The notes below the pieces were generated by a model that was not told where the DNA came from, made no database searches, and saw only the letters and a program-made list of their open reading frames with translations. Made by a program: the position numbers and the translations under genes. From assembly GCA_903970405.1 (NCBI GenBank), contig CAJCIT010000039.1:1-32148 (forward strand): 32,148 nucleotides of DNA, given 5' to 3'. Origin of the DNA: Acidobacteriaceae bacterium (GTDB taxonomy: Bacteria > Acidobacteriota > Terriglobia > Bryobacterales > Bryobacteraceae). This document shows positions 2,516-12,678 of the stretch, in pieces. The number at the start of each line of letters is the position of its first letter. The stretch's first letter is position 1.

Positions 2516-3958
2516 TCAATACTTCAGGTAAATGGTCTTCAGATCGCTGTAGAACTCCATCGCCGCCGGGCCTTGCTCCTTCGGCCCGAAGCTGGAGTCC
2601 TTCGTGCCGCCGAAGGGAAGCTGGTATTCAACGCCGGCGCTCGGAAGATTAACGGTCAAGAGGCCGGCTTCCGCGCCATAGATGAAATCGAAGGCATGGC
2701 TTAGGCTCGAGGTTTGAATGGACGACGAGAGGCCAAGGGGAATCTCATTGGCGATCCGAAGGGCGTCGGCCGCATCCTTGGCCTTCATGACGGCAAGAAC
2801 CGGGCCGAAGACCTCTTCCTGGGCAATGCGCATTTCGGATGTGACATCGGCGAAGATGGTGGGTTCAAAGAAGAAGCCCTTGTCATAGCCGGGTCCGGTA
2901 ACACGCTTGCCGCCTACTCGAGGCGCTCCAGCCTCTTTGGCTCCGATTTCGCAGTAGCGGATGTTGGTGTCGAGTTGCGCCTGATCGATGGCCGGTCCGA
3001 TGTCAACGCCGGCGCTCATTCCGTCGCCCACCTTCAGCTTCTTCGTCCTTTCAATGAGGGCATCGAGGAAGCGATCATAGATGGGCTCCTCCACGATTGC
3101 ACGGCTGGTGGCGGTACACTTCTGGCCGGTGGAAAAGAACGCGGCGTTGACCACGTTTTCAACAGCGGCGGCGAAGTTCGCGTCAGCCAGAACGATAGTG
3201 GGATTCTTGCCGCCCATCTCTAGTTGAATGCGCAACCGGCGTTTGCTTGCCTCCGCGTGAATCCAGTGGCCGATTTCGGTGGACCCGGTGAATGAGACTG
3301 CCCTCAACGCCTTGGCGTTCAGCAAGGCGCTGCCCAATTCCCCGCCGGAGCCCGCCACGAAGTTCACGACGCCAGGCGGGATTCCTGCATCGTGGCAGGC
3401 TTCCACGATGCGCCAGGCGCACAGCGGCGACGCGGAGGCGGGCTTGAGCACCACGGTGTTTCCGCAGATGAGCGCGGGGGCGAGTTTCCAGGCTGGAATA
3501 GCGATTGGAAAATTCCAGGGAGTGATCAGGCCCACTACGCCCAGCGGTTTGCGTAAGGCGAACATGTGGACGCGATCTCGTTCGGAGGGAACCAGGAAGC
3601 CGGGCAGACGGGAGCCTTCGCCTCCGAAGTAGCGGAAAATGTTTATCGCGCGCCGCGTTTCGCCTTTCGCTTCGGGCAGCGTCTTGCCCTCCTCGCGAGT
3701 CATCTCCGCGGCGATCGCATCGAAGCGCTGATCCAGCAACTCCGCCACTTTGAAAAGATAGTTGCCGCGGGCCGGACCTGCGAGCTGCGACCATTTCGGA
3801 AAAGCGGCTTGAGCGGCTTCCGCGGCGCGCTCAACATCCGCCGCCGAGCCCTTCGCCATCAGCCCCACCACTTCATCGGTGTTCGCCGGATTCCGGTTCT
3901 CAAACGTAGGGCCGGCGGTTACCCATTCGCCATTAATGTAGTTGCCAAAGACTTGCAT
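2516..3958 (-). CDS. NAD(P)-dependent aldehyde dehydrogenase, alpha-ketoglutaric semialdehyde dehydrogenase-like
   Basis: This 480-residue cytoplasmic enzyme oxidises an aldehyde to the acid with NAD(P)+. All catalytic elements of the superfamily are visible: TPWNFP with Asn149, Lys172 in VLKPAS, the FTGSTEIG Rossmann turn near 223-230, the general base Glu247 in LEMGGKN, and nucleophile Cys281 in FSTGQKCTATSR. The ending (KEQGPAAMEFYSDLKT) is like the YcbD / 2,5-dioxovalerate dehydrogenase group, which acts in sugar-acid breakdown, but substrate cannot be fixed from sequence. The ATG at 3958 (MQVFGNYINGEW) is preferred over one at 4009, because family members start there and the 17 extra residues cover a hairpin. 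It follows lemA by 91 bases on the same strand, with a hairpin between them, so co-transcription is doubtful. No sugar-acid pathway genes are adjacent. Confidence 0.9.
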   Translation of the reverse strand: MQVFGNYINGEWVTAGPTFENRNPANTDEVVGLMAKGSAADVERAAEAAQAAFPKWSQLAGPARGNYLFKVAELLDQRFDAIAAEMTREEGKTLPEAKGETRRAINIFRYFGGEGSRLPGFLVPSERDRVHMFALRKPLGVVGLITPWNFPIAIPAWKLAPALICGNTVVLKPASASPLCAWRIVEACHDAGIPPGVVNFVAGSGGELGSALLNAKALRAVSFTGSTEIGHWIHAEASKRRLRIQLEMGGKNPTIVLADANFAAAVENVVNAAFFSTGQKCTATSRAIVEEPIYDRFLDALIERTKKLKVGDGMSAGVDIGPAIDQAQLDTNIRYCEIGAKEAGAPRVGGKRVTGPGYDKGFFFEPTIFADVTSEMRIAQEEVFGPVLAVMKAKDAADALRIANEIPLGLSSSIQTSSLSHAFDFIYGAEAGLLTVNLPSAGVEYQLPFGGTKDSSFGPKEQGPAAMEFYSDLKTIYLKY

Positions 3959-3991
3959 TCCTCTGTTGTCCCACACGGCGCCAAAATGCAA

Positions 3992-4024
3992 AGGGGACCA
4001 CGCGCCCATGACGCGTGGCCCCTT
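3992..4024 (-). terminator. Hairpin after lemA, probable terminator
   Basis: A stem of 13 pairs with one mismatch and one G-U pair joins 3992-4004 and 4012-4024, loop of seven bases. Read on the minus strand it lies 26-58 bases past the lemA stop and is followed by TTTGCATTTT, a weak T-rich tail. It would separate the lemA operon from the aldehyde dehydrogenase gene. Confidence 0.5.
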
Positions 4025-4049: not shown

Positions 4050-4616
4050 TTAGAACTTGACCTGCGGAGTCTTCTTCTCTTCGCTGCTGGCCTTGAAGTA
4101 CGCATCGTTGCGGTGGAAGCCGAATAGCGACGCGGCGATGCTGTTTGGGAACAGGTCGATGTTGGTGTTGTATTTAGTGATGGCCTCGTTATAGTCCCTG
4201 CGCGCAATAGCGATGCGGTTTTCCGTCCGCGAGAGTTCATCCTGCAACCGCATGAACTGCTGATCGGACTTCAACTGCGGATAGTTTTCCGACAAGACCA
4301 GCAACCGGCCCAAAGCGCCAGAGAGGTTATTGTTGGCCGCGATTTTGTCTTCCGGACTCTGGGCATTCAACATGCCGGCGCGGGCATTGGCGATGTCATC
4401 GAAGACGCCCTTCTCCTGCTTGGCATAGCCCTTCACGGTCTCCACCAGGTTCGGAATCAGATCGGCGCGCCGTTTCATGGCGTTGTCCACTTCGGCGAAC
4501 TTTCCGTCAATGTCGTTCTTCTGGGTCACCAGTTGGTTTCTGACTCCGAACAACTGGCCGCCAATCACCACCGCGAGCAGGACCAGGACGCCCAGCGCAA
4601 TTAAAAAGCCTTTCAT
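4050..4616 (-). CDS. lemA: LemA family protein
   Basis: This 188-residue protein has the LemA layout. A single N-terminal membrane anchor (about residues 3-22) is followed by a long helical domain. Family hallmarks are NDIDGKFAEVDNAMKRRADLIPNLVETVKGYA (about 34-64), an ARAGMLNAQSP loop near 78-88, SENYPQLKSDQQFMRLQDEL (about 109-128) and RRDYNEAITKYN near the end. Length is usual for the family. LemA is a membrane-anchored helical bundle of unclear biochemical role; it is very often encoded beside TPM-domain (YgcG) proteins, as here. The ATG at 4616 begins MKGFLIALGV. It is the last gene of a TPM / nucleotidyltransferase / lemA set, 30 bases after the nucleotidyltransferase gene. The identification is secure; the function is not known. 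Confidence 0.93.
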   Translation of the reverse strand: MKGFLIALGVLVLLAVVIGGQLFGVRNQLVTQKNDIDGKFAEVDNAMKRRADLIPNLVETVKGYAKQEKGVFDDIANARAGMLNAQSPEDKIAANNNLSGALGRLLVLSENYPQLKSDQQFMRLQDELSRTENRIAIARRDYNEAITKYNTNIDLFPNSIAASLFGFHRNDAYFKASSEEKKTPQVKF

Positions 4617-4646
4617 ACGATTCTTCTTTCCTCCCTATCTAAATCC

Positions 4647-5354
4647 TCACCGTTCAATGTGGTCCACATAGTCTACCAATCTATCGATTTCGGCTAAATA
4701 CTTATCGAATAACGCCACTGCCGTTGTGCCCGCCGGCAGCTTGCCGTTGGCCCGCACGTCGAGCACGGTGTTGAAACCCTCCAGCGGGCCTAGCACGGTC
4801 TCAAGCTCTTTGACAATCTCATGCTTGCGCCACTTCGCGTCCCTGCCGCTCAACATCAGGGCGTGCCGCCCCAGCACGCAAAACGTGGACACCGAGTCTG
4901 CCATTAGCTTAAGCAGGTAATCGGGCGTGGAAAGCGAGTGGGCTGCTTTCTGACGCAGCCGGATCAGCTTCGAGCGCAACTCGTGTTCCACTTGAGCCCG
5001 ATAGTACTGGGGCTGAATCTGGACGTCGTCCATGACATCGATGCCGGCGAGCACGCGGCGGTGGGCATGAATATCGTGGAACTCCATCGGAAAGCAATCC
5101 TGTGAGCGGCGGACTTCATCGGCGCTCATCAAGAGCGGAGACGGATTCCCCAGTTCCCGCCACCAGCGAAAAATCGGCTCCGATTCGGCCAGCTCAGACA
5201 GCGTGACTTTGGTCAGGACGCACAGCACGTTGAGATCGGATTTGTGCTCCTGAAAATCGCCGACCGCCGCCGAACCATAGAGAATGGCCGAAATGAGGCG
5301 ATCTCCGAAAGCCGCCTGCAGCCGCTCGGCCAGACTGTTGAGTTTGTTCTCCAT
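4647..5354 (-). CDS. Nucleotidyltransferase-fold protein with altered metal motif
   Basis: This 235-residue protein starts with a Pol-beta-type nucleotidyltransferase domain. The motif GSAAVGDFQEHKSDLN (27-42) matches the family pattern G-S-x(10)-S-D-x-D, except that the second metal ligand is Asn42 (AAC at 5229-5231) rather than Asp. The C-terminal 130 residues are helical and have no obvious metal ligands; they resemble the helical partner domain found in kanamycin-type or HEPN-linked nucleotidyltransferases. Function is unknown. Loss of one acidic ligand may reduce or change catalysis, but active relatives with variant motifs exist. It lies between the TPM gene (61 bases) and lemA (30 bases) on the same strand, so it is probably co-transcribed and works with that pair. 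No antitoxin-like small partner is adjacent. Start at ATG 5354, MENKLN. Confidence 0.8.
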   Translation of the reverse strand: MENKLNSLAERLQAAFGDRLISAILYGSAAVGDFQEHKSDLNVLCVLTKVTLSELAESEPIFRWWRELGNPSPLLMSADEVRRSQDCFPMEFHDIHAHRRVLAGIDVMDDVQIQPQYYRAQVEHELRSKLIRLRQKAAHSLSTPDYLLKLMADSVSTFCVLGRHALMLSGRDAKWRKHEIVKELETVLGPLEGFNTVLDVRANGKLPAGTTAVALFDKYLAEIDRLVDYVDHIER

Positions 5355-5415
5355 AAGGAGTCTGCTTCCTCCCGTGCCCAGCTAGAAACCAGGTGAATCG
5401 TTGCCAAGTGCTCGG

Positions 5416-6300
5416 CTACCAGTCAGAACTGGCGCCGCCGCCGCCGGCATCGCCACCGCCAAAACCGCCAAAACCACCGCCACCGCCCCCACCGCCGCTG
5501 TCGGATCCCCCGAAGCCTCCTCCACTACCCCAACCGCCGCGTCCGCCACCGCCGAGCACCTGGCCGAGGATCATACCGGCCAGGAGCCCGCCGCCACCGC
5601 CGCCGTATCCACCGCGGCCTCCTCGACCGCCGCGCAGACTGCCAATCACCCACATGATCACGAAGAAGCCAATCAAGAGAAGAAGAGGATTGAAGCCGTG
5701 ATGGCCTTGCCGAACAGGCCGGCTTCGCGCGACGGGTGCGGCAGCGTCGAACGGAATGTTCTTATTCCGAGCGATCTCCGTGGCCATGGTCTGAAGGCCC
5801 TGGAGAATGGCATTCCCGTAATCGCCCGCCCGGAGCGAGGGACGCATGGAGCGCAGCGTGTCCCCGGCAAAGGCATCGCTAACATAAGCCTCCAATCCTC
5901 GGCCATGCTCAATGTCCGACTTGTGGTCCTGAATGGCCAGGATCATGAGAGCGCCCTGATTATCTTTGCTCGATCCGGGTTTGAAGTGGCGGAAGAGACG
6001 AATGCCGAAATCCTCAATCGGCTCGTCGTCAAGGGTCGCGATGGTTACCACGCCGAACTGAACGCCGAGTTGCTTTTCGACGTTCGAACAATAGGCTTCA
6101 ATGGCAGCCTTGCCGGCAGGATCCACTACGTGCGCATAGTCACTCAAGTAGCCGGTCGGCGCCGGTAGTTTGTCAACGTCGACTTTGGCCGCCGCGGGCA
6201 GAACAGCTGCAAGCAGGGCGGCCGCGACCAGGACAGGCGCTATCGCGATCGTTCGAATACGCACACTAGGAGTACGATTCTTGGTGGCAATTTTGTTCAT
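5416..6300 (-). CDS. TPM-domain (YgcG family) exported membrane protein with Gly-rich tail
   Basis: This 294-residue protein has an N-terminal signal peptide or anchor (about residues 17-38, ending PAAAK) and a TPM domain at about 47-175. The domain opens with 'LPAPTGYLSDYAHVVDPAGK' and contains the QFGVVTIATLDD strand and GRGLEAYVSDAFAGDTLR block typical of the family. After it come a membrane helix at about 203-221 and a tail of about 70 residues made almost entirely of Gly with Ser, Phe and Asp, ending SSDW. The TPM domain folds on the outer side of the membrane; acid phosphatase activity is reported for plant relatives (TLP18.3), and a role in photosystem repair there, but bacterial members are uncharacterised. 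It heads the set TPM / nucleotidyltransferase / lemA. The Gly-rich tail ending in SSDW is common in bacterial members. Confidence 0.9.
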   Translation of the reverse strand: MNKIATKNRTPSVRIRTIAIAPVLVAAALLAAVLPAAAKVDVDKLPAPTGYLSDYAHVVDPAGKAAIEAYCSNVEKQLGVQFGVVTIATLDDEPIEDFGIRLFRHFKPGSSKDNQGALMILAIQDHKSDIEHGRGLEAYVSDAFAGDTLRSMRPSLRAGDYGNAILQGLQTMATEIARNKNIPFDAAAPVARSRPVRQGHHGFNPLLLLIGFFVIMWVIGSLRGGRGGRGGYGGGGGGLLAGMILGQVLGGGGRGGWGSGGGFGGSDSGGGGGGGGFGGFGGGDAGGGGASSDW

Positions 6301-7234: not shown

Positions 7235-8049
7235 TTACTTCGCCGAATGGCCGGATGCGGCTTTGCGGGCGGACAATTGGCGCCACAGCAGAGTGGATCC
7301 CGCGCCCAACCCAAGCAGCAGATAGCAGCCGGAAGCGGGCTCTGGAACAGAACTACTGCTGCTGACAGCCGGGCAAACGTCTACGCTGTTGGTGTCCAGA
7401 GTAACTGCCCCGTTCTGCGCCAAAGCGCTGCCGCAGTCAATTGTGGCGCCGGTATCGAGCGTGATGCTGACTAGCGCGAGAATATTTCCCTCGAATGCGG
7501 TGGCCGCGCCAAGGGTCGCCGAACTGCCTACCTGCCAAAAGAGATCGCTCCCTTGAGCGTCGTTCGTAAAAACAACTGAAGAACCGCCTGCGGTGGTAAG
7601 CGTGCTGCCTATCTGGAATACGAATGTTGAGTTGGCATTGCCCTCGCCATTCAGAGTCAGTTTTCCCGTTAACTGCGCCGTCGATGCAAAGCAGTAGACT
7701 CCCGGCGTAAGAGTAAGGCCGCCTAAAAGTCTTGGCCAGTCAAAGAAGTCCCGCAAGGAAGAGCCGCCGCAGCTCCGTAGGCCGCCGCGAGATCGGACTG
7801 AGCCAGCGTGGCGGCTGGGTCGTCATTGTCGATAAGACCAGCACTGACAGTACCGGGAGGGAACCCGGTAATTGACACTCCAGGCGATACTCCGAGGTTT
7901 CCATTGATTGCCGTCAGGCCCGTATTGGTGACCGTCGATCCGCCGAGCACAGCAAAAGAGCCGGCTGTGCCTAAATCGATGATGGGGCTGGCACAGACAA
8001 CGCCAACCGAAAACAAGAGACAAACGAAACCACTGAGCGCTATCCTCAT
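7235..8049 (-). pseudogene. Ice-binding-like (DUF3494) PEP-CTERM protein, frameshifted
   Basis: Two overlapping minus-strand frames together make one protein. The first (8049 to 7723) has an AAGGAG ribosome binding site, a signal peptide (MRIALSGFVCLLFSVGVVCA) and the DUF3494 start 'DLGTAGSFAVLGGSTVTNTG'. It then stops at 7723-7725 right after LTGQDF. The second, in the -1 frame, continues without loss from LGGLTLTPGVYCF to a PEP-CTERM tail: VPEP, a hydrophobic segment (GCYLLLGLGAGSTLLW) and basic residues. Family members normally read TGQDLGGLTLTPGVY across the join. The break is at a T4 run (7725-7728 on the plus strand as AAAA): removal of two bases would restore the normal text, and one added base would also restore the frame. 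The intact protein would be exported, sorted by an exosortase and held at the surface. It may be a real mutation or a sequencing error. Confidence 0.8.
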
Positions 8050-9255: not shown

Positions 9256-9451
9256 GCATCTACACTCAATCGAAGACTCCCCATACGAAGGCTACGCCGG
9301 TTTTCGAGACGGCTAAACTAAAATCAGGTCAGAGCTACTTGCATGTCGCGGCCTGACTTCCCGCCGTTGCGCTTCCGGGCGAACCGAACCGGCTGTCGTT
9401 TCGCAGCTCCGCCGGGTGGGAAGTATCCGCTTGCCGGCCCGGTCAGTCACA

Positions 9452-9907
9452 ATGCGCCACTGGTTGAAAAAATTCTTACTGCTCGATATCCTGCGCGGCT
9501 TGCGGGTCACCTTCCGCCAGCAGGGTCCCCGCCAAATCACGACCGAGCAGTACCCCTCCGATCGTCCCTTCGTCGCCGAACGGTATCGGGGCGCGCCGCG
9601 TCTCAACATCAACCCCGAAAGCAACGAAACTCTTTGCATCGTTTGCGACCTCTGCGCCAAGGCCTGCCCGGAAAACCTGATCGTAGTCGGCAGTGAACGC
9701 GATCCCGTCACCAAGCACAAGATCCTCACTCATTTCACTTACGATCTCTCGCGCTGCATGTTCTGCGGCCTCTGCGAGGATGCCTGCCCTGTGGATGCGC
9801 TTGAACTGACCCAGGATTTCGAACTCGCGAGCTTCACCCGCCAGGGCTTGGTGTGGGATCGCCAGATGCTTGAAGAGGGTCCGCGCCCGGTGGAGTTCAA
9901 GCACTAG
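9452..9907 (+). CDS. nuoI: NADH-quinone oxidoreductase subunit I
   Basis: NuoI carries the two 4Fe-4S clusters (N6a, N6b) that pass electrons from the peripheral arm of complex I towards the quinone site. Both cluster motifs are complete: C62-x2-C65-x2-C68-x3-C72-P and C102-x2-C105-x2-C108-x3-C112-P. The N-terminus (MRHWLKKFLLLDILRGLRVTFRQ) is the usual amphipathic helix lying on the membrane. I use ATG 9452 (151 residues) since it matches this N-terminus; a GTG at 9416 would add 12 atypical residues. It is the first gene of a seven-gene cluster, one base before nuoJ. NuoG or NuoH would normally precede it, but here the upstream gene is unrelated. Confidence 0.95.
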   Translation: MRHWLKKFLLLDILRGLRVTFRQQGPRQITTEQYPSDRPFVAERYRGAPRLNINPESNETLCIVCDLCAKACPENLIVVGSERDPVTKHKILTHFTYDLSRCMFCGLCEDACPVDALELTQDFELASFTRQGLVWDRQMLEEGPRPVEFKH

Positions 9908-9908
9908 G

Positions 9909-10445
9909 ATGCTTTCCGCCGCGTTGTTCTACTTCTTCAGCCTCCTCACGCTCATGGGCGCCATTCTCTGCGTGACGCGCCGAAATCCCGTTCTCAGCGG
10001 CGCCTGGCTCATCGTGTCTCTCTTGGGAGTGGCTGGATTGTTTCTCCTCGTGGGCGCCGAGTTTCTATTCGTCGCTCAGATCATCCTCTACATCGGCGGC
10101 ATCACCCTGCTATTCCTGTTCGTCATTATGCTGGTGAATCTCGAAGGCATCGTCCGCGTTCGCCAGTTCCGCCGAAGCTGGCCGCTGGTGATGGCCGTCG
10201 GCATCGGACTCGTGGTGGAAATCGTCATCCTGCTTCTGCGCGGCCGTCTCCCGGCAGAAGCTACTACTGAAGCCTCGGCCGCCGGTAATACCGAGCAACT
10301 CGCCGACGTTCTCTTCTCTTCTTACTTCGTGCCTTTTGAACTTGCCTCGGTGCTTTTGCTGGCCGCTATCCTCGGTTCAATCTGGATGGGGCAGCGCCGG
10401 CCTGGGCGCCAAGCACATTCCGGAGCAGGAGAGCGAGTGGAATGA
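9909..10445 (+). CDS. nuoJ: NADH-quinone oxidoreductase subunit J
   Basis: This membrane-arm subunit of complex I has 178 residues and five hydrophobic helices. The typical NuoJ signature '[26 protein letters not shown]' lies at about residues 56-81, including the helix with the flexible pi-bulge region and the conserved Tyr-Ile-Gly-Gly. A loop rich in Ala/Glu/Thr (about 117-136) separates the fourth and fifth helices. The ATG at 9909 follows the nuoI stop by one base; an in-frame ATG at 9870 lies inside nuoI and is rejected. The stop codon overlaps the nuoK start (ATGA), so translation is coupled. Confidence 0.94.
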
Positions 10446-10750
10446 CCACCGTCTCGCCGCTTCATTACCTGATCGTGAGCGCCGTGCTGCTGGTCATCGG
10501 GACGCTCGGCGTTCTTTTGCGCCGCAACATCGTCGTCATTCTCATGTCGATTGAGCTCATCCTCAACGCCGTGAACATCAACCTGGTTGCTTTCTCGCAT
10601 CTGCACCGCCAAGTGAATGGCCAGGCCTTCGTCCTGTTCGTGATGGCGGTGGCCGTTGCCGAAGCGGCGGTGGGCCTGGGAATCCTGATCGCTCTCTTCC
10701 GTAACCGGGGCACGGTTCTGGCCGACGAAATGGACCTCCTCAAATGGTGA
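10442..10750 (+). CDS. nuoK: NADH-quinone oxidoreductase subunit K
   Basis: At 102 residues with three membrane helices, this is the normal size of NuoK. The conserved acidic residues of the proton path are visible: Glu in [11 protein letters not shown] (second helix) and Glu in [11 protein letters not shown] (third helix). It starts inside the nuoJ stop (ATGA) and its end overlaps the nuoL start by seven bases, so the three genes are translationally linked. It sits in the membrane arm next to NuoJ and NuoN. Confidence 0.96.
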
Positions 10751-12678
10751 TCGCCGCCGAGCAGGGTGGCGCGCTGCTGGCCGGCACGCTGGCACTGCCG
10801 CTCGCCGCCGTCCTGCTAATCCTCGTTTTCGGCGGACGGCGCATCGCCGCCGGCGACCGCCCCACTTCTCGCCCTGGCTTGGTTGCGGCCACGGCTGCTG
10901 TGCTCAGCCTCCTGCTCTCCGTCGGCTGCGTCTTGATCTATTGGAAGGCGCAGAATCGTTACTTTGCGCCGGAACTCCACATTTCCGGAGGAGAATGGAT
11001 TCCCGGCTTCGGCCCGACGCTTGGCCTGATGCTCGATCGACTCAGCGCCGTCTTGCTGTTGCTTGTCGACGGCATCGGCCTCATGGTTATCGTCTATTCG
11101 CTCGGTTACATGCGGGATGAGCGGGACCAAAGCCGTTTTTACGCCGCGCTGCTGTTCTTCATCGCCATGATGAAACTGCTGGTGCTGGCCGACAACTACC
11201 TTCTGCTATTTGCCGGTTGGGAGGGCGTCGGCTTCGCGAGCTATCTGCTGATCGGCTACCACTTCGAACGCTGGAAAGCGGCGCAAGCGGCCACCCAGGC
11301 GTTCCTCGTGAACCGAATCGCCGACGTTGGTTTTCTGCTCGGCATCCTCGCTCTGTTTGAGGTCTACGGCACACTGAATTTCCGCGGTATTCATGCCGAC
11401 GGAATCCCGCGTCCCGCCGTTATCGGCATTGCGTCCGCGCTGCTGTTTGGCGCACTCGGCAAATCGGCGCAGATTCCTTTCCATGTCTGGCTGCCGGACG
11501 CCATGGAAGGCCCAACGCCCGTCTCGGCACTGATCCATTCCGCTACCATGGTCTGCGCCGGTGTCTACCTCATCGCCCGCTCCTCAACGATTTTCGACGC
11601 AGCGCCGGAAATCGGCCGAGGCATGGCCATCCTCGGCGTTGCTACCGCGCTCTTCGCGGCCACCGTTGCTCTGGTTGAGAACGACATCAAGCGGGTCCTC
11701 GCCTACTCGACGATCAGCCAGATCGGCTTCATGTTCCTGGCCCTCGGTGTGGGCGCCTACAACGTTGCGATCTTCCATCTCTTCACGCACGCCTTTTTCA
11801 AATCGCTGCTCTTCCTGGGCGCAGGTTCGGTGATTCACGCACTGCATGGCAACCAGAACCTCAAAGAGATGGGAGGACTGCGCCGCAAGATGCCCGTCAC
11901 TTTTGCCACCATGACCATCGCCGCCGCGGCATTAGCCGGCGTCCCTGGACTCGCGGGCTTCTTTTCGAAGGACCAGGTTCTGGACGCAGCGCTGCTCGCG
12001 CCCGGAGGCAGGCTGCTTTTCGCCGCCGGCCTCTTCACCTCGCTTCTCACCGCCATTTATTCGGGACGCCTGATTTTCCTGGTCTTCTTTGGTGAGCGAG
12101 CGCGCCGAAGTGGAGTCGCCCCCGCGCACGGTTCGCCACCGCTCATGCTGGCGCCGATGCTGATCCTTTCCGGCGGTTGTATCGCCGCCGGATACTTTCT
12201 CCCCATCCATTGGAGTCAGTGGCCAGTTTTGCTCACAACGGGCATCGCCGCTTTGCTCGGGATCTGGGTCGCCTATCGGTACTACATCGCCCAGCCGGAA
12301 GCGCGCACAGCGCTGGACATTCGCTTCGCCCCGCTCGCCAAACTCCTGCGCAATCGCTGGTACGTCGACGCCATTTATGAAGAGCAACTGGTGGACCGCT
12401 TCGTGATGCGCATGGCGCACGGCGCCACCGTTGTGGACAACACCATCATCGATGGCAGCGTCAACGGCTTCGCCTGGTCAACCCGCCAGATGTCGCGCCT
12501 CTCCCGCTGGATCGACCGGTACCTCATCGACGGTCTTGTCCAGTTCACCTCCCACGGGCTCCGCTTCCTGGCGTCTCCGGCGCGCGCTCTGCAATCCGGC
12601 GCGGTGCAAACGTATGCTTTTCTCTTCATCGCCGGCCTGCTGGCGGCGCTGGGCTACTTTATCGTTCGAACCCGTTGA
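10744..12678 (+). CDS. nuoL: NADH-quinone oxidoreductase subunit L
   Basis: NuoL is the distal antiporter-like proton-pumping subunit of complex I, 644 residues with about 16 membrane helices. Key features are the channel Glu in [20 protein letters not shown] (about residues 155-174), the [24 protein letters not shown] block, the central Lys and His in the '[20 protein letters not shown]' helix, and a long C-terminal part. That part includes the amphipathic lateral helix (about 520-600, with [15 protein letters not shown]) that runs along the membrane arm, and a last anchoring helix. The ATG overlaps the end of nuoK. Four bases separate it from nuoM. Confidence 0.96.

Follow-up and report, generated by a model that had tools for sequence, protein, structure and literature searches.

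TPM-domain and LemA proteins are widespread and often encoded by neighbouring genes, and almost no function has been assigned to either family. MamQ, a LemA protein, has been proposed as a hub that organises other membrane proteins (PMC4902198), and TPM domains have been proposed to be chaperone-like beside PspA (PMC11237479). Active enzymes of the DNA polymerase beta-type nucleotidyltransferase (NT) superfamily are recognised by three carboxylates, provided by a DxD/E motif and by one further residue on strand beta-3, and some NT folds, OASL among them, are inactive and serve in binding (PMC4446440). No NT-fold member was found in the published TPM-LemA or PspA-TPM contexts. Similarly, the open-access literature gave no paper joining LemA, the TPM domain and nucleotidyltransferase, nor one joining LemA, nucleotidyltransferase and Acidobacteri, although absence from that literature is weak evidence.

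In the window (the whole stretch of 32,148 nucleotides analysed here, from an Acidobacteriaceae bacterium), an NT-fold gene lies between a TPM gene and lemA, with the following features:

5416..6300, minus strand: TPM-domain membrane protein, 294 aa (PF04536, E=3.1e-29, 102 bits against a gathering cut-off of 22.1)
4647..5354, minus strand: middle gene, putative pseudo-nucleotidyltransferase, 235 aa, with a predicted NT-fold N-terminal domain and a HEPN-like helical bundle
5271..5276, minus strand: GS of the NT motif, G27 S28, with S28 equivalent to AadA Ser-36 by alignment
5229..5240, minus strand: SDLN motif, S39 D40 L41 N42, from the sequence and the alignment with AadA1 SDID
5124..5138, minus strand: strand beta-3 and the preceding residue, P73-S77, expected seat of the third metal carboxylate/catalytic base
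5073..5099, minus strand: D86-x-F88-x-x-E91-x-x-D94 segment, from the invariants and column counts of the 33-member alignment
4050..4616, minus strand: lemA, LemA family membrane protein (PF04011, E=2.7e-59, 199.7 bits against a gathering cut-off of 26.2)
3994..4022, minus strand: terminator-like hairpin after lemA, with a 13-pair stem and a T-rich tail
2516..4009, minus strand: aldehyde dehydrogenase (PF00171), the next gene after lemA

The TPM gene is separated from the middle gene by 61 bases and the middle gene from lemA by 30 bases. Strand and spacing are thus as given in the first-pass annotation, and the PF04536 and PF04011 matches of the outer genes are clear. By hydropathy, the window TPM displays a signal-peptide-like N-terminus, followed by the TPM domain and one hydrophobic segment near residue 205, and it ends in a Gly-rich tail (...GGGGASSDW) whose terminal Trp is found in 171 of 180 operon TPMs. 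LemA has one N-terminal transmembrane helix, and the same type of analysis detected no hydrophobic or transmembrane segment in the NT protein. A GFGGG..GGGGA...W pattern recurs in the TPM tails (window 5416-5700 and other loci), and the strand opposite the Gly-rich tail yields long spurious Pro-rich ORFs, such as 5393-5701. The hairpin after lemA, a consensus match only in a region where the hairpin count is not above that of shuffled sequences, possibly marks the end of a three-gene operon, and a promoter scan of the region gave nothing above chance. The aldehyde dehydrogenase gene, which is frequent after lemA in loci of the same family only, was ruled out as a core member, as it is limited to part of the family and the terminator-like hairpin lies between it and lemA. 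Elsewhere in the window, two minus-strand ORFs that overlap (7235-7756 and 7723-8049) may represent one frameshift-split secreted protein with a PEP-CTERM-like end, and the plus strand carries at 9416-12678 ordinary housekeeping genes of complex I-like type (ferredoxin-like and NuoJ/K/L-like), both judged by eye.

The middle protein matches NTP_transf_2 (PF01909; E=0.1, 13.4 bits against a gathering cut-off of 21) and the ANT(3'')-II NCBIfam model (E=6e-4, 19.2 bits against a cut-off of 400) below threshold, and both matches span approximately residues 4-51. The AlphaFold2 model, built from 59 aligned sequences, has a pLDDT of 93.5 and a pTM of 0.87. The top match of this model in Foldseek and VIA is ANT(3'')(9)/AadA over the full length (Z ~16, rmsd 3.1-3.5, 207-215 residues), with Z=16.2 and rmsd 3.2 over 214 residues for 7uy4 in VIA and E=4e-6 for AadA in Foldseek. 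MNT and HEPN structures match separate halves of the model, in a match list from which a missing family is not thereby excluded. By its predicted fold, the protein is a member of the DNA polymerase beta-type nucleotidyltransferase superfamily, and the NT fold assigned to the middle gene on first reading is confirmed at this level. In the helical half the HEPN signature R-x4-6-H is incomplete: R134 is invariant, and His-139 of the window protein is not conserved (consensus RLRQKAAG).

The metal site of the middle protein differs from that of AadA both in the SDxD motif and on strand beta-3. The SDID motif of AadA1 aligns with the SDLN of the window protein (codons 5240-5229, TCC GAT CTC AAC), which places N42 at the position of AadA Asp-49. 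The missing beta-3 carboxylate corresponds to AadA Glu-87, and no position of the 70-77 region (predicted beta-3 strand, 74-77) is acidic in more than 3% of operon sequences. The window protein therefore has DxN and no beta-3 acid in place of the three carboxylates, and it falls outside the ANT(3'')/AadA family as defined by Asp-47, Asp-49, Glu-87 and the NCBIfam cut-off. An hhalign comparison with AadA aligned the first 43 columns only; E91 and D86 are candidate counterparts of AadA Asp-130. SDLN with AAC for the Asn had been read correctly in the first-pass annotation, which took it as one metal ligand altered by what could be a single base change. The replacement of Asp by Asn stands, but the account understates the change, because Asn is family-wide and a second carboxylate is missing. 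A recent single-base change is not borne out either, since Asn is the standard state of the family, occupying position 42 in 162 of 198 sequences, with Asp in 2. Two members of one genus (L131 and L147) carry SDYD and are nested on the tree among SDxN sequences; L131 passes the PF01909 cut-off at 31.6 bits and has no acid at residues 70-77 in the 33-member alignment. The SDYD of these members appears to have arisen by reversion, with the third carboxylate still missing. In other members the motif is lost altogether. The GS and SDxN motifs are wholly gone in a 24-member clade with the gene order NT-TPM-LemA, and on the tree f16, f76, f89 and single members have them disrupted or missing (L208, which reads ASLT, is divided over two matches and is left out of the motif losses). 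As read from the tree, motif loss across several clades is a matter of independent events.

These features bear directly on whether the protein could be an active nucleotidyltransferase with unusual metal ligands, NMPylating TPM, LemA or a small molecule. The window protein has the fold and the GS...SD motif, further acids are conserved (E80, D86, E91 and D94), and the sequence leaves room for a metal held by the Asn together with another acid. However, most family members have Asn in place of the second ligand, beta-3 is devoid of acid even in the two SDxD members, and the conserved acids do not track catalysis because they are kept in members without the GS/SD motif. NMP transfer to a partner, as the first-pass annotation had suggested, is likewise unsupported in view of the absence of two of the three metal carboxylates in essentially the whole family and of several lineages that lost the entire motif yet retain the operon. 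Activity of this kind is improbable, and the NT protein is very probably dead as a classical nucleotidyltransferase, as judged from its metal-site residues.

The NT protein is present in 47 of 61 genomes in a search of relatives, and 104 of the 396 Acidobacteriota genomes in the phylum-wide sample gave a match, a figure that takes in weak hits and paralogues. LemA is present in 102 of these 104 genomes, the exceptions (G183 and G406) being weak or partial NT matches. Co-occurrence at the genome level is modest when taken alone, because 208 of the 292 sampled genomes without an NT match also have LemA, and it is adjacency, rather than co-occurrence, that provides strong evidence for the link between NT, TPM and LemA. 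Among 198 distinct NT sequences, 190 adjoin TPM and/or LemA, and these comprise all 190 distinct orthologues examined. Both partners adjoin the NT gene in 172 of the 190 loci, and all 172 are co-directional. The order TPM-NT-LemA dominates (140 loci, plus 3 with a duplicate), followed by NT-TPM-LemA (25), TPM-LemA-NT (2), NT-LemA-TPM (1) and LemA-TPM-NT (1), so that the linkage outlasts rearrangement, the triplet being kept through five gene orders. The junctions are short, with median gaps of 16 bases for TPM-NT and 19 bases for NT-LemA, and in 12 of 28 NT-TPM pairs the ends overlap. A three-gene TPM-NT-LemA operon is therefore proposed here, of which the NT gene is almost certainly a member. 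The neighbourhood search thus upholds the conservation of the arrangement conjectured in the first-pass annotation: the triplet is shared well beyond the window genome and co-occurs with lemA, and in view of this conserved, co-directional and tightly spaced operon across the phylum its reading as an undescribed component of a TPM/LemA system is a fair one.

The two partners are not tied to the NT gene to the same extent. Where the flanks are sufficiently long, LemA is missing in L017, L029, L141, L143, L154, L168, L170 and L203 and TPM in L014 only; the tie of NT to TPM looks stronger because LemA is the partner more often absent. Conversely, 26 genomes were searched for want of the NT gene. 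Seven of the 26 are also without LemA, and four of these seven belong to one genus, in which other genomes carry both the NT gene and LemA. The TPM-LemA pair is retained in 11 of the 26 (ten confirmed by a broad profile in regions of ~10 kb), and the NT protein is therefore not essential to every TPM-LemA module. Searches of plasmids and viral contigs gave no NT-protein match, which says little about chromosomes elsewhere. The long open frames of some loci were not counted as fusions of the NT protein to another domain; in L164, the one that was scanned, the TPM match within the long frame sits in another reading frame. An M16-family peptidase gene was observed directly upstream of TPM in 25 of 51 longer Bryobacterales loci by crude gene calling (for example L043:1927-3210, L056:1891-3174 and L071:1913-3196), and an FAA hydrolase gene follows the aldehyde dehydrogenase in Bryobacterales loci; together with the M16 peptidase it may form an extended neighbourhood. 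Two contigs titled Arcobacter sp. and Acidimicrobiia (L079 and L101) carry Bryobacterales-type operons and are probably mislabelled genome bins.

Seven residues (L55, F88, E91, G104, R119, E123 and R134) are invariant in the 33-member alignment, in motif-bearing and motif-less members alike, and F88 and E91 persist in members that have lost the metal motif. The dN/dS values of motif-less pairs are 0.12-0.27 (NG86, a rough estimate given the high synonymous distances of some pairs) and lie near those of the neighbouring TPM genes. To judge from these ratios, the NT gene is under purifying selection, also after motif loss. A gene that hitch-hikes or is decaying, without a part to play in the module, would be expected to lose its catalytic motif and to be absent from some genomes that keep TPM-LemA, as is the case here. 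This explanation is contradicted by the purifying selection that persists after motif loss and by an association held through five gene orders, with short and often overlapping junctions, and is scarcely credible.

The fate of the motif also bears on a nucleotide sensor, in which the SDxN pocket would bind ATP or another nucleotide without turnover and the nucleotide state would set the TPM/LemA interaction at the membrane. Most operon members retain GS and S39/D40 over deep branches, and this deep retention of GS...SDxN suggests that in most lineages selection maintains some function of the pocket. In AadA the ATP phosphates are contacted by Ser-36 and Ser-46, whose counterparts here are S28 and S39, and the AadA-like two-domain arrangement is predicted to be intact. 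However, AadA binds ATP with Mg, two of whose three ligands are gone here, and sensing cannot be the shared function because the several lineages that lost the pocket motif retain the operon under purifying selection. As an account of the module, nucleotide sensing is doubtful.

The preferred reading is that the pseudo-nucleotidyltransferase is a dedicated soluble cytosolic partner, acting as an adaptor or scaffold, of the TPM-LemA membrane module. As a whole this explanation is somewhat favoured, and the adaptor or scaffold role at TPM/LemA, considered by itself, is evenly balanced. The gene neighbourhood suggests that the NT protein would bind the membrane proteins, the likeliest targets being TPM, through its Gly-rich tail, and/or the LemA bundle, while residue conservation points to a binding surface around F88/E91/G104/R119/E123/R134. 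The TPM tail would be cytosolic if the single-pass topology read from a simple hydropathy plot is right. A Gly-rich tail of the same kind is present in TPMs without an NT gene, and therefore the tail is not singled out as the NT target. Through such contacts the NT protein may help to assemble or regulate the TPM-LemA complex, and by analogy an assembly role would fit the MamQ hub and TPM chaperone proposals (PMC4902198, PMC11237479). In the GS...SDxN lineages the old pocket may still bind a structural or regulatory ligand, be it a nucleotide or another phosphate compound, without catalysis; such residual ligand binding is a tentative suggestion from the retained motif.

The remaining 8 of the 198 NT sequences adjoin neither TPM nor LemA. 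All are SDxN; position 91 is Lys in seven and Asp in one. They are paralogues, because four Bryobacteraceae genomes carry both forms. Downstream of the paralogue in L180, L188, L192 and L210 comes the gene of a TIGR04222 membrane protein whose tail is rich in Cys and Gly. The clusters also carry MNIO genes (PF05114), identified by direct scan in L188 and L212 and by similarity to those in L180, L192 and L210. A 2025 survey of MNIO clusters treats TIGR04222 at length, includes many such clusters without a known partner protein and makes no mention of a nucleotidyltransferase (PMC12452194). The paralogue (SDxN, Lys-91) of L180, L188, L192, L210 and L212 may be an unrecognised partner in TIGR04222/MNIO clusters. 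Neither the paralogue-TIGR04222-MNIO nor the TPM-NT-LemA arrangement was found described in the open-access literature. The NT protein could accordingly be conceived as a general partner that recognises or chaperones Gly-rich tails of low complexity, serving TPM and, via the paralogue beside the MNIO enzyme, TIGR04222. The four loci with adjoining TIGR04222 proteins and the surveyed clusters that want a partner favour such a role; the paralogue loci are a handful only, the TPM tail is unchanged where the NT gene is absent, and the TIGR04222 tails are predicted to be periplasmic (PMC12452194), which makes it unlikely. The same low probability attaches to a broader scheme in which dead nucleotidyltransferases were recruited for Gly-rich-tailed membrane proteins, in a TPM/LemA branch and in a sister TIGR04222 branch whose tails may be MNIO-modified and whose NT member may be the missing partner protein.

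A soluble third protein inherited with TPM and LemA across the phylum, despite reshuffling and motif loss, offers a concrete handle on the module. The large natural series of NT folds, from SDxD to no motif, is useful for the study of enzymes turning into non-catalytic partners.

Among known systems, AadA/ANT(3'')(9) (PDB 7uy4, 5g4a) resembles the NT protein over the full length of NT domain and helical bundle, with the GS...SD motif aligned. In contrast, identity is 13%, Asn replaces Asp-49, no acid occupies the Glu-87 position, and the gene lies in a TPM/LemA operon. The resemblance of the NT and helical domains to MNT and HEPN (Z ~8-12) recalls HEPN-MNT toxin-antitoxin pairs (such as MntA-HepT), but the window protein joins both halves in one chain, its catalytic Asp pair is incomplete, R-x4-6-H is not conserved and its gene lies beside genes for membrane proteins. 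Dead NT-fold proteins, human OASL among them, likewise combine an incomplete carboxylate triad with a retained fold and a non-catalytic role, which is here proposed; OASL, however, is of a distant subfamily and binds dsRNA, whereas the operon points to membrane proteins. TIGR04222-MNIO clusters are adjoined by the NT paralogue and also include a Gly-rich-tailed membrane partner, although the TIGR04222 tail is Cys-rich and MNIO-linked. With TPM-LemA pairs and the PspA-associated TPM, the locus shares a TPM that has a signal peptide, a membrane segment and a tail rich in Gly, and a LemA with an N-terminal helix. Its novelty resides in a pseudoenzyme of known fold as the third member of this known, unexplained pair.
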